Virus record (IMG/VR): IMGVR_UViG_3300019886_000024
Coordinates: 1-24,152 of that record
DNA length: 24,152 nt
Origin: a virus
Direction: 5' to 3' (one strand)
Within the stretch, counting starts at the first letter, position 1. Each line of letters opens with the position of its first letter. Position numbers and translations under genes: made by a program. The notes beneath the pieces are model-generated. The model was not told where the DNA came from. It did no database searches and was given only the letters and a program-made list of their open reading frames with translations. This document shows, one piece after another, positions 12,934 through 19,359 of this stretch.

Positions 12934-13605
12934 TTAGTGAGTGGTAGCCGTAGCGGGCTTCTGCCGGGTCTGCACCTTGCCTGCTTGCGCAGCGCTCAGC
13001 ACTTCCCCTGCCTTAGCCTTGGGCTTTGGCGGAACCTTCGGCTTTGCTTTCAGGCTCTCATCCCCTGCCTTGTCGCCAAGCATCGACTTAACATCGAGGC
13101 CCTTGACTGGCAGCTCTGCACGAGCCTTAAGGTTCTCTTCCGCCCGCTTGTAGAGATCCGGGTTGCCAGCCAGTACATCCTTGGCGAAGGCTGTAAGCTC
13201 CTTCGCGTCGAAAGCGCTGATCTTATACCCATTGCTCCGTAGGGTGTCCTTAACCAACGCCTTCGCAAGGCGCATGGCCTCGGTCTGCGTGGCTCCGGTA
13301 CGCTTCGAGGTGGCCTTGGCACCCTTGAGATTCCCGTCATACATGGCCTGCACTGTCCGTGTGGCCTGTTCCACGATCTCTGCGGTACGCTTGACCTTAT
13401 CCTCACCCACGGCTTTGGTAATGCCCGTAGCGATCTTGGACATCCCAACTTTGTTGATGATGGTTTCCAAGCCAACCGTGAAGATGTATTGGTAAACATC
13501 CATGTCCACGATCAGCGAGGTGTCCACCTCAACTTCGCCTACGCCACCTTTCAGTTTGATCTTGATCGTCTGAGGAGTGGCTTCTGATGCAACTGCGTCA
13601 GTCAT
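12934..13605 (-). CDS. Conserved hypothetical protein with basic Pro/Lys tail, 223 aa
   Basis: Starts at 13605 with AAAGGA 8 nt ahead. The N-terminus (TIKIKLKGGVGEVEVDTSLI) looks like a beta unit, followed by a mostly helical domain with AVGEDKVKRTAEIVEQATRT and TEAMRLAKALVKDTLRSNGY. The final 50 residues are Lys/Pro/Ala-rich (KAKPKVPPKPKAKAGEVL) and probably bind nucleic acid or membranes non-specifically. The helical part (...KDTLRSNGYKISAFDAKELT) suggests a DNA- or RNA-binding role, by inference. No family is recognised. Confidence 0.7.
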   Translation of the reverse strand: MTDAVASEATPQTIKIKLKGGVGEVEVDTSLIVDMDVYQYIFTVGLETIINKVGMSKIATGITKAVGEDKVKRTAEIVEQATRTVQAMYDGNLKGAKATSKRTGATQTEAMRLAKALVKDTLRSNGYKISAFDAKELTAFAKDVLAGNPDLYKRAEENLKARAELPVKGLDVKSMLGDKAGDESLKAKPKVPPKPKAKAGEVLSAAQAGKVQTRQKPATATTH

Positions 13606-15738: not shown

Positions 15739-15780
15739 CATTGTACTCCCCAGTATACACCCGCAGGAGGTGAATGTCAA
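15739..15780 (-). promoter_or_regulatory. Consensus sigma-70 promoter, leftward early
   Basis: On the minus strand: TTGACA (15775-15780), 17-bp spacer, TATACT (15752-15757), then N3 and GAGTACAATG (15739-15748). The boxes match the sigma-70 consensus at 11 of 12 bases, and the downstream element is identical to the one after the 11.4-kb promoter. It is the main candidate for transcription of the 14-15.7 kb genes. Confidence 0.85.
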
Positions 15781-15815
15781 GAGCTATTTCCCCCACCCCA
15801 CACCTGAGAGGTACT

Positions 15816-16001
15816 GATACTACCCCGATACTACCCCGATACCGCCCTGTTGCTTAGGAGTTAGAGAGACCCCACCCCGTAGGGGGGATAGGTATGGTGT
15901 TTGTGTGTGTGTGTGTTGTGTACATACTATACGGGGTCACGGCTACCCCCTTGAAGGGCTTAGGCAACAGGGTAGTATCGGGGACTAATGGGGGCGGTAT
16001 C
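15816..16001. repeat. Iteron-like 11-bp repeats in a large inverted repeat
   Basis: Left arm: three tandem 11-bp units from 15816 (GATACTACCCC twice, then GATACCGCCCT), followed by GTTGCTTAGG. Right arm (inverted): GGGTAGTATC (15970-15979), a degenerate unit (15980-15990) and GGGGCGGTATC (15991-16001), preceded by CTTAGGCAAC. Units are spaced 11 or 22 bp apart, in helical phase. The 97-bp centre holds a GT tract and a GACCCC..GGGGTC pair. No credible gene runs through the region. Candidate origin, centromere or operator cluster. Confidence 0.7.
15902..15916 (+). repeat. TG dinucleotide tract
   Basis: Seven and a half TG units lie in the centre of the large inverted repeat, followed by TTGTGTACATACTATAC. 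Such tracts favour flexible or unwound DNA. Slippage would make length variation likely. Confidence 0.7.
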
Positions 16002-16102
16002 TGTATCATTGCAGGTGTGCACAGCACTGCCACTCCCCGACTCTGCCCGCTCCGCTTATTGCACTGCAACCGCTGTCTTGTGCTGCGTTGCACAACACTT
16101 CG

Positions 16103-16118
16103 ATCACGAAACCGTGAT
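16103..16118 (+). promoter_or_regulatory. Perfect operator-like palindrome, third copy
   Basis: ATCACGAAACCGTGAT is a 16-bp site with perfect 6-bp arms, followed by TTGC as at 14242. It is oriented toward the 86-aa rightward gene. A separate 6-bp inverted repeat, TTGTGC/GCACAA, lies just upstream (16078-16095). No -10 box was found at the right distance. Confidence 0.5.
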
Positions 16119-16194: not shown

Positions 16195-16455
16195 ATGACC
16201 ATCCTCCCGAACCTTGCCCAAGAGAACGAAGCCCTCAAACAGAAGCTTGCGGATATGCAAGCCATCCTTGCCGCTGCCTCGAAGCCTAAGGCCATCACCC
16301 TCAAGGTCAGCGAGAAGGGTGCGCTCAGCGTCTACGGCCTTGGACGCTTCCCGGTCACGCTGTACCGTGGCCAGATGGAGCGCTTGATTGGTGCCGTGCC
16401 CCAGATCAAGGCCTTCATCGAGACCAATTCCGCCCTCTTCGCAACCAAGGACTAG
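16195..16455 (+). CDS. Conserved phage protein with YGLGRFPVTLY motif, 86 aa
   Basis: First gene rightward of the control region, with AAAGG 8 nt before the ATG. An N-terminal coiled coil (LAQENEALKQKLADMQAILA) is followed by KVSEKGALSVYGLGRFPVTL, a short motif I know from many large-phage and viral hypothetical proteins (S-x-Y-G-L-x-R-F-P-V-T-L-Y), and by a helix, RLIGAVPQIKAFIETNSALF. The function of the motif is not established. It has its own hairpin-bounded transcript and may be an early rightward gene. Confidence 0.75.
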   Translation: MTILPNLAQENEALKQKLADMQAILAAASKPKAITLKVSEKGALSVYGLGRFPVTLYRGQMERLIGAVPQIKAFIETNSALFATKD

Positions 16456-16490: not shown

Positions 16491-16519
16491 GGCCTCATCC
16501 CCTCGAAGGGGGTGGGGCC
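16491..16519 (+). other. 13-bp hairpin after the 86-aa gene
   Basis: Positions 16491-16519 can fold into an uninterrupted 13-bp stem (Watson-Crick plus two or three G-U pairs, arms GGCCTCATCCCCT and AGGGGGTGGGGCC) around a 3-nt CGA loop. It follows the gene stop by 35 nt. No U-tract follows on the plus strand, so it may protect the mRNA end or act with Rho rather than as an intrinsic terminator. Confidence 0.5.
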
Positions 16520-16564
16520 AAAATTCGTCGCTCGCGTGGGCCCGCAGTGTTGCTTCCGGCGCAA

Positions 16565-16642
16565 AATATAATTTAGCCTTTTCCCTATATATAAAATAAT
16601 TGCAAATATCTCTTGACACCGACACCTGATCCGTGGGATAAT
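16565..16642 (+). promoter_or_regulatory. Sigma-70 promoter for the packaging/head genes with A+T-rich upstream DNA
   Basis: TTGACA (16613-16618), 18-bp spacer, GATAAT (16637-16642). A 45-bp A+T-rich tract (about 16565-16610, including CTATATATAAAATAATTG) precedes the -35 box and could act as an UP element or an unwinding site. It is the only strong rightward promoter seen and probably starts the late operon. Confidence 0.8.
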
Positions 16643-16682
16643 GGGGCCACGCTGAAGGAGAATTCTGTAAGAGGCCATGCCA

Positions 16683-17105
16683 ATGGAAGAGTACGTTCAT
16701 ATTGATATTTCTAAGCTACTGCACTGCGGGGTCTATGCGCTTCTGAAGAAGGGAGTGGTGGTGTATGTGGGGAAGTCGAAGCAGCCGATGGTGAGGTTGA
16801 GCACGCACTTTCGGAATAGAGGAAAGGAGCTGGCGCGGACGTGGAACCCGGATGCCGGGCCAGCGGTTAATGGAAGAGGGATTGGGTTTGATGGAGCTTG
16901 GTTTGTTCCTTGCATGCTAGGGCAGCTGGATATAATTGAGGGGTATCTTATTCGGAAGTATCTGCCGAAGTATAATATCAAAGGGAAACCAGCTATGCCA
17001 ATTCCTGATGATATCAAGGCGTTGCTGAAGCAGATGGTTTACATCACTGACATGCCACCACAACAGGACCCTGTGTCCAGATCGTATATGGTAAGAAGGC
17101 TATGA
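16683..17105 (+). CDS. GIY-YIG nuclease (probable homing endonuclease-like), 140 aa
   Basis: A compact single-domain GIY-YIG protein. It has CGVYALLKKGVVVYVGKSKQ (the GIY and YIG strands), RLSTHF with the following basic residues, and the catalytic-Glu helix, LDIIEGYLIRKYLPKYN. No DNA-binding extension such as a NUMOD is obvious, so specificity may be low or built in. The start at 16683 has GAGG 8 nt ahead; an ATG at 16677 is 2 nt from it. Codon use (many GGG, GGA, GTG, AGG and AAT) differs from neighbours that favour C-ending codons, suggesting recent acquisition. It ends in an ATGA overlap with the terminase small subunit. Alternatively, it may be a packaging or repair nuclease. Confidence 0.82.
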   Translation: MEEYVHIDISKLLHCGVYALLKKGVVVYVGKSKQPMVRLSTHFRNRGKELARTWNPDAGPAVNGRGIGFDGAWFVPCMLGQLDIIEGYLIRKYLPKYNIKGKPAMPIPDDIKALLKQMVYITDMPPQQDPVSRSYMVRRL

Positions 17106-17752
17106 CCCAACCTACGCTTCACCGTGGCAAGCTGGCCCGCACCCCGAAGGTTCTCTCGGTGCGGCCGCTGACCCGTGAGGATATAGCTGCGCTACAAGCC
17201 CCGAGGCCTCCCCAGAACAGGCCTAAGGCCATGCGTGAGGCACATCATCGCTTGGCGCGGATGGTCGCGGCTGGGTTTCGTATCGAAGAGATCCTGCGCC
17301 TAACCGGCTACAGCTACAACCGCCTTCTTCAGCTTCGCAAGGACCCTGCCTTCGAGGAACTGATCACTCAGTACCGGGGTAAGGTTGACGAGTCTTGGGC
17401 CCGGAGTTTGGATGAGTTTCATGAAACCTCAACCTCAAACATGCTCCGGGCCGAACGAATGATTGAGCAGAAGCTCGATCTCGCGGAGGAGACGGAAGAG
17501 CTTCCTTCACTCCGAGATCTTATGGCTCTCACCTCAGACCGGGCCGATCGCTTTGGGTACTCGAAGAAATCCATTCAGCGAAATGAAAACCTCGACTTCG
17601 CTGCGATGATGGAACAAATCGCCCGCGCTTCGGGGAAGTCCAACGTGATCGACGCGAAGCCCCTGTTCGGCAACCGTGGAGCGACCGTGGAGGCCGAGAT
17701 TCCCGCCAGTCGGCTGGTGACCAGCGGGGATGATGGGGGGACAGATGGCTGA
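17102..17752 (+). CDS. terS: Terminase small subunit, 216 aa
   Basis: Lies directly before the large terminase, which is the standard place for this subunit. Residues ~45-90 hold a helix-turn-helix-like unit (RLARMVAAGFRIEEILRLTG, then YSYNRLLQLRKDPAFEELI). A long helical region with MLRAERMIEQKLDLAEETEE follows, typical of the oligomerisation segment, then an acidic/Gly-rich tail. Role: recognises the packaging site on phage DNA and recruits the large subunit. The ATG overlaps the GIY-YIG stop (ATGA). Exact family is not resolved by eye; context carries much of the assignment. Confidence 0.8.
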   Translation: MTQPTLHRGKLARTPKVLSVRPLTREDIAALQAPRPPQNRPKAMREAHHRLARMVAAGFRIEEILRLTGYSYNRLLQLRKDPAFEELITQYRGKVDESWARSLDEFHETSTSNMLRAERMIEQKLDLAEETEELPSLRDLMALTSDRADRFGYSKKSIQRNENLDFAAMMEQIARASGKSNVIDAKPLFGNRGATVEAEIPASRLVTSGDDGGTDG

Positions 17753-17852
17753 CAAGGTGCTCGGCATGGCTCCCTTGGCGCTGTCTGTCCCTTCAGGCGT
17801 ACGCCACGCGCCTACCACTCGATCCCGCATGGAGGTCGTAGGTGGAACCTGA
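17745..17852 (+). CDS. Possible 35-aa protein overlapping both terminase genes
   Basis: An ATG at 17745 with a GGGGGG run 4 nt ahead opens a 35-codon frame (MADKVLGMAPLALSVPSGVR, then a Thr/Arg tail ending EVVGGT). It overlaps the end of the small subunit by 8 nt and the start of the large subunit by 11 nt, so it would couple the two. It could also be a chance frame in the gap. No homology is recognised. Confidence 0.4.
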   Translation: MADKVLGMAPLALSVPSGVRHAPTTRSRMEVVGGT

Positions 17853-19359
17853 ACTCGCCGAGTGGCTGGTTTCTGTACGTGACGATCCCCTTGCTTGGGT
17901 CATGGGCGCATTTCCATGGGGCGTCCCCGGCTCCCAACTCGAAGCGTTCGATGGCCCGATGCCCTGGGCTAAAGCTCTGATGGAGCGCGTTCGGGTTGGG
18001 TTGCTTACGCCTGAAGAAGCCATCCTTGAAGCCACCGCCTCCGGCCACGGCATCGCGAAGTCCACCACAGTCTCTCAGTTGGTCCTCTGGGCCTTCACCA
18101 CCTTCCCAGACTGTCGTGGGGTTGTCACAGCGAACACAGAGACCCAGCTCAAGACCAAGACCTGGGCCGAGTTGGGGAAGTGGTTCAATCTCTTAAGCCC
18201 AATCATCCGCCAACACTTTGAACTGAAGGCCACCTCTCTTCTCTCAAAGGACCCCAACCGCGAACGCACGTGGCGGATCGATATGATCCCGTGGTCCAAG
18301 ACCAACCCGCAAGCGTTCGCTGGGTTGCACAACAAGGGCAACCGTCTGATCCTTGTCTTCGACGAAGCTTCCGAGATCGAAGATATCATTTGGGAAACCG
18401 CAGAAGGCGCCTTCTCCGACGCGGATACCCAGCTCATCTGGCTCGCCTTCGGCAACCCCACCCGCAACACCGGCCGCTTCCGTGAATGCTTCGAAGGTGG
18501 CGCACACAACAGCTTCTGGCACACCAACCAAATCGACTCCCGCGAAGTCCCCATCACCAACAAGAAGCGTATAGAAGCCCTCATCAAAGTCTATGGTGAA
18601 GACAGCGACTACGTCCGCATCCGTATCCTAGGCCAGTTCCCACGCCAGGGCCTCATGGAGTTCTTCCTCGCCTCGGATATCGATGGCGCAATGTCCCCAG
18701 AACGAGAGGTCTTCATAGATGCATCCACACCCTTGGCTATCGGGGTTGACGTCGCCCGCTATGGGGCCAACAACTCTGTTATCTTCCCTCGTAAGGGACG
18801 CGATGCTCGGACCATTGCTCGGAAAACCTACAACGGCATCTCCACAGTTGAACTTGCCAACAACGTCTTCGACGTGTGGCAACAATGGCACCCCGACGGA
18901 ATCTTCATAGACGGCGGTGGCGTAGGCGGTGGCGTTGTAGACAACTGCCGGGCCAAGCATCTCTACGTCACGGAAGTTCAATTCGGAGGCAAGGATGACA
19001 TCACCGGAATCGTCTTTGACAACTCTGGCGAGCAATACGCTAACAAACGGGCCGCGATGTATGGCGCGCTCCGAAGCTGGGTCCGCACTGGCCTATTGCC
19101 TGTTGACGCCGATCTGCGCACAGCAATGCTTGCTATCCGATATACTTTCAACAAACAAGACCAGATCATCCTCACTCCGAAGGAAGACATACTTGCAGAC
19201 AATCCTGGATTGGTGCTCGACGACCTTGACGCCCTAGCACTGACCTTCGGTGGGCCCCTCGCAGCTCACATAGCTGCAGGTGGTGAAGGTCCCAGGCAAG
19301 AACTTCACGTTACCGAATACGATCCCTACGCCCCCGAACATATGGGACACGCAGCATGA
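17842..19359 (+). CDS. terL: Terminase large subunit, 505 aa, GTG start
   Basis: A complete TerL. The ATPase half has a Walker A motif GHGIAKST (68-75) and Walker B LVFDEAS (Asp174, Glu175). The RNase H-like nuclease half has GVDVARYG (Asp303), IFIDGGG (Asp357) and VLDDLDAL (Asp460/461/463). Role: pumps DNA into the prohead and cuts concatemers. The start is GTG at 17842, with GGAGGT 5 nt ahead and an in-frame TAG immediately before it, which fixes the start. Ala72 replaces the usual Gly before the Walker Lys. It matches the family found in BPP-1-like and related phages. Confidence 0.93.
   Translation: MEPELAEWLVSVRDDPLAWVMGAFPWGVPGSQLEAFDGPMPWAKALMERVRVGLLTPEEAILEATASGHGIAKSTTVSQLVLWAFTTFPDCRGVVTANTETQLKTKTWAELGKWFNLLSPIIRQHFELKATSLLSKDPNRERTWRIDMIPWSKTNPQAFAGLHNKGNRLILVFDEASEIEDIIWETAEGAFSDADTQLIWLAFGNPTRNTGRFRECFEGGAHNSFWHTNQIDSREVPITNKKRIEALIKVYGEDSDYVRIRILGQFPRQGLMEFFLASDIDGAMSPEREVFIDASTPLAIGVDVARYGANNSVIFPRKGRDARTIARKTYNGISTVELANNVFDVWQQWHPDGIFIDGGGVGGGVVDNCRAKHLYVTEVQFGGKDDITGIVFDNSGEQYANKRAAMYGALRSWVRTGLLPVDADLRTAMLAIRYTFNKQDQIILTPKEDILADNPGLVLDDLDALALTFGGPLAAHIAAGGEGPRQELHVTEYDPYAPEHMGHAA

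Follow-up and report, generated by a model that had tools for sequence, protein, structure and literature searches.

The window, that is, the whole stretch of DNA analysed, is a 24,152-base IMG/VR virus fragment in which leftward early genes encode a UDG-like protein, an AAA/Sak4-type ATPase, a PD-(D/E)XK nuclease and a UvrD-like helicase, and rightward genes encode TerS, TerL, a head-tail connector and a capsid protein. Near-complete relatives also encode a PolA-type polymerase and a primase besides these early genes. In relative G002 (L159 18267-19376), a single gene fuses a uracil-DNA-glycosylase-like domain with a polymerase 3'-5' exonuclease domain, and a 223-aa early protein of the window (12934-13605), which is conserved in more than 20 relatives, has no Pfam, fold or annotated-phage match. 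The large terminase TerL (17842-19359, + strand; phrog_2, E 1.5e-37) shares at most 43% identity with isolates among the best matches listed, of which Pseudomonas phages and the epsilon15 group come nearest, and the head-tail connector is similar to its counterparts in BPP-1 and epsilon15 relatives. No close isolate of the window phage was found in the phage collection searched. The relatives measure ~47-50 kb; in three of the four examined the ends overlap, which makes circular assemblies probable. The scanned proteins, a set that covers not every small gene, include no recognisable integrase or repressor, and there is thus no evident sign of a long-lived low-copy state. Among bacterial genomes, the best TerL relative (61%) lies on a contig binned with a Terriglobia (Acidobacteriota) MAG (L200, JAIQFO010000051.1), which gives a weak hint of the host group of these phages; in this contig no giant repeat stands out clearly (best score 33.5).

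Local alignment of the two arms delimits a giant imperfect inverted repeat at 15799-16019, which is the strongest in the window (score 55, runner-up 38.5) and scores above the maximum of 38.5 reached in 30 Markov-1 simulated windows, bearing out the original prediction of a giant inverted repeat at this place. As also predicted, the 11-bp units form two blocks, three in tandem at 15816-15848 and, opposite them, three in inverted orientation at 15969-16001, the middle one of the latter being degenerate. The units of the left outer arm, on the + strand, read GATACTACCCC at 15816-15826 and again at 15827-15837, and GATACCGCCCT at 15838-15848. Their mirror units, on the - strand, are GATACTACCCT (unit 3', 15969-15979), the degenerate CATTAGTCCCC (unit 2', 15980-15990; CATTAG-type units of this kind are ordinary in relatives, e.g., L016) and GATACCGCCCC (unit 1', 15991-16001). 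All five exact matches to GATACYRCCC in the 24 kb window fall inside the element. Both blocks end in a common inner edge, TGTTGCYTARG, represented by TGTTGCTTAGG (15848-15858, +) and TGTTGCCTAAG (15959-15969, -). This shared edge and the TG tract between the blocks (about 15900-15921, +) had been foreseen correctly, although the spacer measures 100 bp from edge to edge rather than 97 bp.

The element lies between divergent operons, as proposed. To its left, a leftward early promoter (TTGACA-N17-TATACT, 15752-15780, - strand, 11/12 consensus positions) stands 35 bp from the first unit (36 bp in the original prediction); its hexamers recur at the same place in ~20 relatives. To its right, a rightward promoter (TTGACA-N18-GATAAT, 16613-16642, + strand, 11/12 consensus positions) precedes the terminase operon. 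A palindrome, ATCACGAAACCGTGAT (ATCACG-N4-CGTGAT, 16103-16118), found by inspection in the window and many relatives upstream of the gene for an 86-aa protein, is a candidate operator beside a weak candidate rightward promoter. The 86-aa protein itself (16195-16455, + strand) has a nearly invariant YGLGRFPVTLY core and adjoins the element in most relatives; its gene is flipped in some (L094, L095, L096 and L104), and its family occurs in many environmental phage contigs and in just two annotated records. An AlphaFold model of this protein showed a weak resemblance to PC4/PUR-alpha nucleic-acid-binding folds (Z of 4.0 at most, with 5.3 A over 51 residues) and gave Foldseek E values above 0.5.

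A second site, conserved in sequence, lies at about 16491-16578 (+ strand), where a terminator-like hairpin is followed by GGGGTGGGGCCAAAATT...GGGCCCGCAG, with GGGCC..CAGT after GGGGTGGGGCCAAAATT. Most relatives share the form GGGGTGGGGCCAAAATTTTGTC-TCTGCG-GGGGCCGCAG, ~1.3 kb upstream of TerL. The left part of this site resembles the terminator of the 86-aa gene and is missing in L046, L047, L051 and L070, which retain the right part; one of these, L070, comes from the same contig as L094 and has the 86-aa gene in flipped orientation. The second site is apparently untranscribed. A GIY-YIG endonuclease-like gene (16677-17105) sits between it and TerS.

Relatives were gathered via TerL and via the 86-aa neighbour protein, and in most of them a long inverted repeat precedes the 86-aa gene or TerL. 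The element occurs in at least 39 epsilon15-like contigs, where it separates a strong leftward early promoter from the terminase operon, and in ~40 contigs it is found ~1.4-2.4 kb upstream of TerL and also upstream of terS. In all six relatives scanned nearly whole, the element is the best inverted repeat of the contig. The span ranges from 171 to 299 bp (median 242, 39 elements) and the arms measure ~85-150 nt, hence the term iteron array, used in the original prediction, fits the outer part, whereas what relatives conserve is a longer, phased mirror architecture. The letters of the unit vary, from GATACTACCCC in the window to CCTCATTAGTA in L016, TCCCTCGATAG in L022 and a CCCAAG-type unit in L050. 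A search for GATACYRCCC-type arrays in related phages had been suggested; a tandem-pattern search of viral contigs returned one unrelated match, and the exact GATAC-type pattern was rejected as a family signature, since the letters drift while the architecture persists. Absence or loss of phase in close relatives had been named as the finding that would speak against the element; dozens of relatives were found to carry it with its 11-bp phase intact. Near and distant DNA searches of annotated phages revealed no relative of the element, and no comparable giant repeat occurs in UFJF_PfDIW6 and AF, which are TerL relatives at 41-43% (the best score in AF, 41.5, falls at a tandem-repeat stretch). 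The strongest inverted repeat of Bordetella phage BPP-1 (L180 26600-26720, score 67), whose arms each hold two 9-bp direct repeats, separates bbp27 from bbp28 and lies upstream of the terminase genes; it is a possible distant analogue.

It should be noted that the 39 elements were chosen for being inverted repeats and that overall pairing levels are consequently inflated; helical phase, a register fixed on the inner arms and the period of mismatches are free of this selection. Autocorrelation of the arms is 0.41, 0.38 and 0.32 at lags of 11, 22 and 33, and ~0.25 elsewhere, in agreement with the predicted helical phasing. AT steps recur every 11 bp in both arms, with GC steps 3-5 bp after each, and mirror mismatches likewise recur at 11 bp (z 4.6). 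When the register was set by the inner arms alone, the mirror identity of the outer arms was 0.50, falling to 0.37 at shifts of +-11 and to 0.26 at other shifts (13 elements). The mirroring is position-specific, beyond a common unit type. In the centre, simple runs of AG, TG, TA or A (or their complements) occur in 34 of the 39 elements, compared to 14 runs in the 381 kb outside; the counterpart of the window's TG tract in relatives is (AG)n, (TG)n, (TA)n or A8+. These tracts are polar, with 22 AG/TG/A8 against 3 CT/CA/T8 on the late strand, an effective number that is lowered by relatedness. A symmetric frame around a polar centre suggests a directional event at the centre.

Several lines of evidence bear on whether this architecture belongs to duplex DNA or to a folded strand. 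Among 958 mirror mismatches, G-U pairs would number 178 on one strand and 214 on the other, with no strand preference. Transcription heads away from the right side of the element, the left side has the strong leftward promoter, and where the 86-aa gene is flipped in L094, L095 and L096, a terminator-like hairpin lies between gene and element. Since no strand-specific G-U bias is seen and the flanks hold outward promoters or a terminator, the element looks like an untranscribed, protein-organised DNA site. We consider it very probable, judging from the sequences, that it is a protein-organised site of some kind that is not transcribed; and because it is kept while its letters change, it is probably a protein-wrapped control site.

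As to which function such a site would serve, we tentatively favour packaging initiation, a role that the original prediction does not name, by analogy with known pac sites: the element may be a pac-like site wrapped by the small terminase, a reading we regard as possible rather than probable. Each arm, ~90-130 bp long, alternates AT and GC steps at the 11-bp period and so should be wrappable by a ring or spiral of a multimeric protein making one contact per helical turn, and as the arms mirror each other, two such assemblies would bracket the simple-sequence centre symmetrically. In the proposed mechanism, the small terminase, whose gene lies 1.1 kb to the right, would wrap both arms, the centre, polar relative to the late strand, would be the place of the enzymatic step, and the large terminase would act there. 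Protein wrapping, the identity of the binder, the cut and the packaging function are all inferred. The published model for phage SPP1 has bent pac DNA wrapped by TerS, with oligomers of TerS on both sides of the cut site in a possibly symmetric arrangement (PMC4856287). A model of SPP1/SF6 TerS places the HTHs one B-DNA turn apart on a ring with a circumference of ~300 A, and favours nucleosome-like sequences of ~100 bp (PMC4737164); the arm length and 11-bp phase of the element would match this wrapping model. Two further features of SPP1-type pac sites are present, namely the position upstream of an HTH/TerS-like gene and TerL in the relatives examined, and periodic, bendable DNA (11-bp AT/GC) on both sides of a centre.

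The candidate binder is TerS (17102-17752, + strand), an HTH protein encoded directly upstream of TerL. Its relatives yield HTH matches together with weak TerS profile matches, no significant match was obtained between the TerS-like protein and solved TerS structures in the PDB, and the epsilon15 record holds an HHpred match of epsilon15's own TerS to SF6 TerS. Co-variation was assessed by partial Mantel analysis of element similarity against protein similarity given TerL. TerS co-varies with the element (partial r 0.24, p 0.002, n=39; p ~0.03 after thinning of close relatives), and no significant co-variation was seen for the 86-aa, 223-aa and 332-aa proteins, the portal or the MCP. The 86-aa neighbour was rejected as binder because its similarity does not follow that of the element, and the 223-aa early protein because its co-variation is weak and non-significant and it has no fold match. 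In the 11-12 genomes with early genes, however, the partial r is 0.39 (p 0.002) for an exonuclease, 0.29 (p 0.022) for TerS and 0.29 (p 0.023) for an SSB-like protein, so that the other two proteins co-vary with the element as well as TerS or better; several proteins entered this comparison and the p values are uncorrected. TerS co-variation therefore backs packaging weakly, and its use as decisive evidence was withdrawn.

Other observations also count against packaging. Known pac sites usually lie within or adjoin terS, whereas this element is 1.1 kb away. The second site is nearer to terS, strongly conserved in sequence and likewise co-varies with TerS (partial r 0.38), and contigs L003 and L005 begin within ~16 bp of it. 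That site may be the cos/pac packaging site, leaving the giant repeat another role, or the two may act jointly. Four contigs (L009, L010, L017 and L034) end in or near the central tract, but simple repeats also break assemblies; contig ends do not accumulate at the element beyond this effect, and the ends, being too few, were discarded as a sign of packaging ends.

A replication origin, one of the functions originally suggested, is the strong rival and nearly as likely as a packaging site, packaging fitting slightly better; we hold it as a possibility of somewhat lower standing. Here an early initiator would bind the phased repeats in each arm and the centre of simple sequence would melt, with the polarity of the centre setting the strand or direction of the first fork. 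Repeats beside an easily melted centre follow the canonical plan, as in SPP1 oriL/oriR, where direct repeats accompany an AT-rich unwinding element (PMC6316719). The centre is richer in AT than the loci (best 30-bp stretch 0.68 vs 0.45), although many centres are AG or TG tracts and these are not AT-rich. The location beside a strong early promoter, between early and late operons, the strand-polar tracts, and the co-variation of the exonuclease and SSB-like proteins (11 genomes) are all consistent with an origin. Against it, DnaA boxes lie near just 5 of 39 elements, and no initiator gene was recognised among the proteins scanned. The usual sign of an origin in cumulative GC skew is a minimum. 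The GC-skew check suggested originally did not single out the element: the cumulative maximum lies here in three of four near-complete genomes, a signal confounded by gene orientation.

A looped operator or enhancer, also among the suggested functions, is in our view unlikely. A regulator bound to both arms would loop the centre and switch the divergent early and late promoters together. The position between these promoters, with the left edge near the early promoter in many relatives, and the same-face spacing, which suits cooperative binding, are in keeping with such a loop, and the SPP1 TerS-pac complex also silences a nearby promoter (PMC4737164). However, the distance from promoter to first unit appears variable by eye, and the early promoter, because it is near consensus, is expected to be on at once. 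Moreover, the other promoter already has its own conserved palindrome (ATCACG-N4-CGTGAT), and the element stays where the flipped 86-aa gene leaves no right-hand promoter. Some function outside those considered here has a smaller chance still.

That the long inverted repeat acts as a folded strand, either a structured RNA or a single-stranded DNA hairpin, is very improbable. Pairing reaches up to 106 pairs, with a fold z of -12 in L026 (the copy in the window is modest, z -2.9), and the position-specific mirroring and strand-polar centre would suit a folded strand. Nevertheless, the strict 11-bp phase of both units and mismatches is a signature of duplex DNA, and an Rfam search gave no match of note. 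The lack of strand preference among G-U mismatches and the outward promoters or terminator at the edges, which make the element apparently untranscribed, led us to reject an RNA hairpin. Least likely of all, and scarcely to be entertained, is the suggested partition (centromere-like) site bound by a ParR-type protein, since, although two 11-bp repeat blocks around a spacer resemble R1 parC and R1 ParR needs 11-bp repeats, characterised ParR proteins bind direct repeats (PMC9426499), the blocks here are inverted, the scan of proteins revealed nothing like ParM or ParR, and the scanned proteins give no sign of a long-lived low-copy state either.

The element is a non-coding hallmark for a large clade of uncultured soil phages. 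The layout was predicted to be unusual, and indeed no description of mirror arms, helical phase and drifting letters combined with a polar simple centre was found in the open-access literature searched. It could represent an undescribed class of phage DNA element, with a nucleosome-like complex at the early/late junction coupling packaging, replication and early-late control, a proposal that we put forward tentatively. If TerS wraps the element, few sequence signatures of nucleosome-like wrapping during DNA packaging would be as clear, and dozens of natural variants would make the terminase wrapping model readable from sequence; if it is an origin, the replication start would be fixed for these phages. 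The conservation of the mirror despite letter drift also poses a testable evolutionary question, whether selection acts on both arms or one arm is corrected from the other.

Each of the known systems compared shares a part of this layout. Phage P1 pac has short repeated binding elements flanking a central region of ~160 bp, but these are Dam-site hexamers inside the TerS gene, without phased mirror arms. In R1 parC/ParR, two 11-bp repeat blocks likewise surround a spacer, although as direct repeats next to parM, and no such genes are seen here. The repeats of SPP1 oriL/oriR also adjoin an easily melted region; they are direct repeats with a known initiator, one set lying inside the initiator gene, whereas the element has two mirror-image blocks and no initiator was recognised. 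The Mu strong gyrase site and the 130-bp gyrase motif resemble the element in having periodic, anisotropically bendable flanks around a centre; the motif is defined over ~130 bp (PMC6379681), whereas the elements span 171-299 bp with position-specific mirror arms. In SPP1/SF6 pac (pacL-pacC-pacR, TerS ring), bent, periodic DNA flanks a central site at or upstream of terS, as it does here, and TerS oligomers bracket the cut with an HTH spacing of about one DNA turn (PMC4856287, PMC4737164). SPP1 pacL and pacR have no sequence identity and overlap gene 1, whereas the arms of the element are mirror images, 11-bp phased around a simple-repeat centre 1.1 kb from terS, with TerS as their putative binder.
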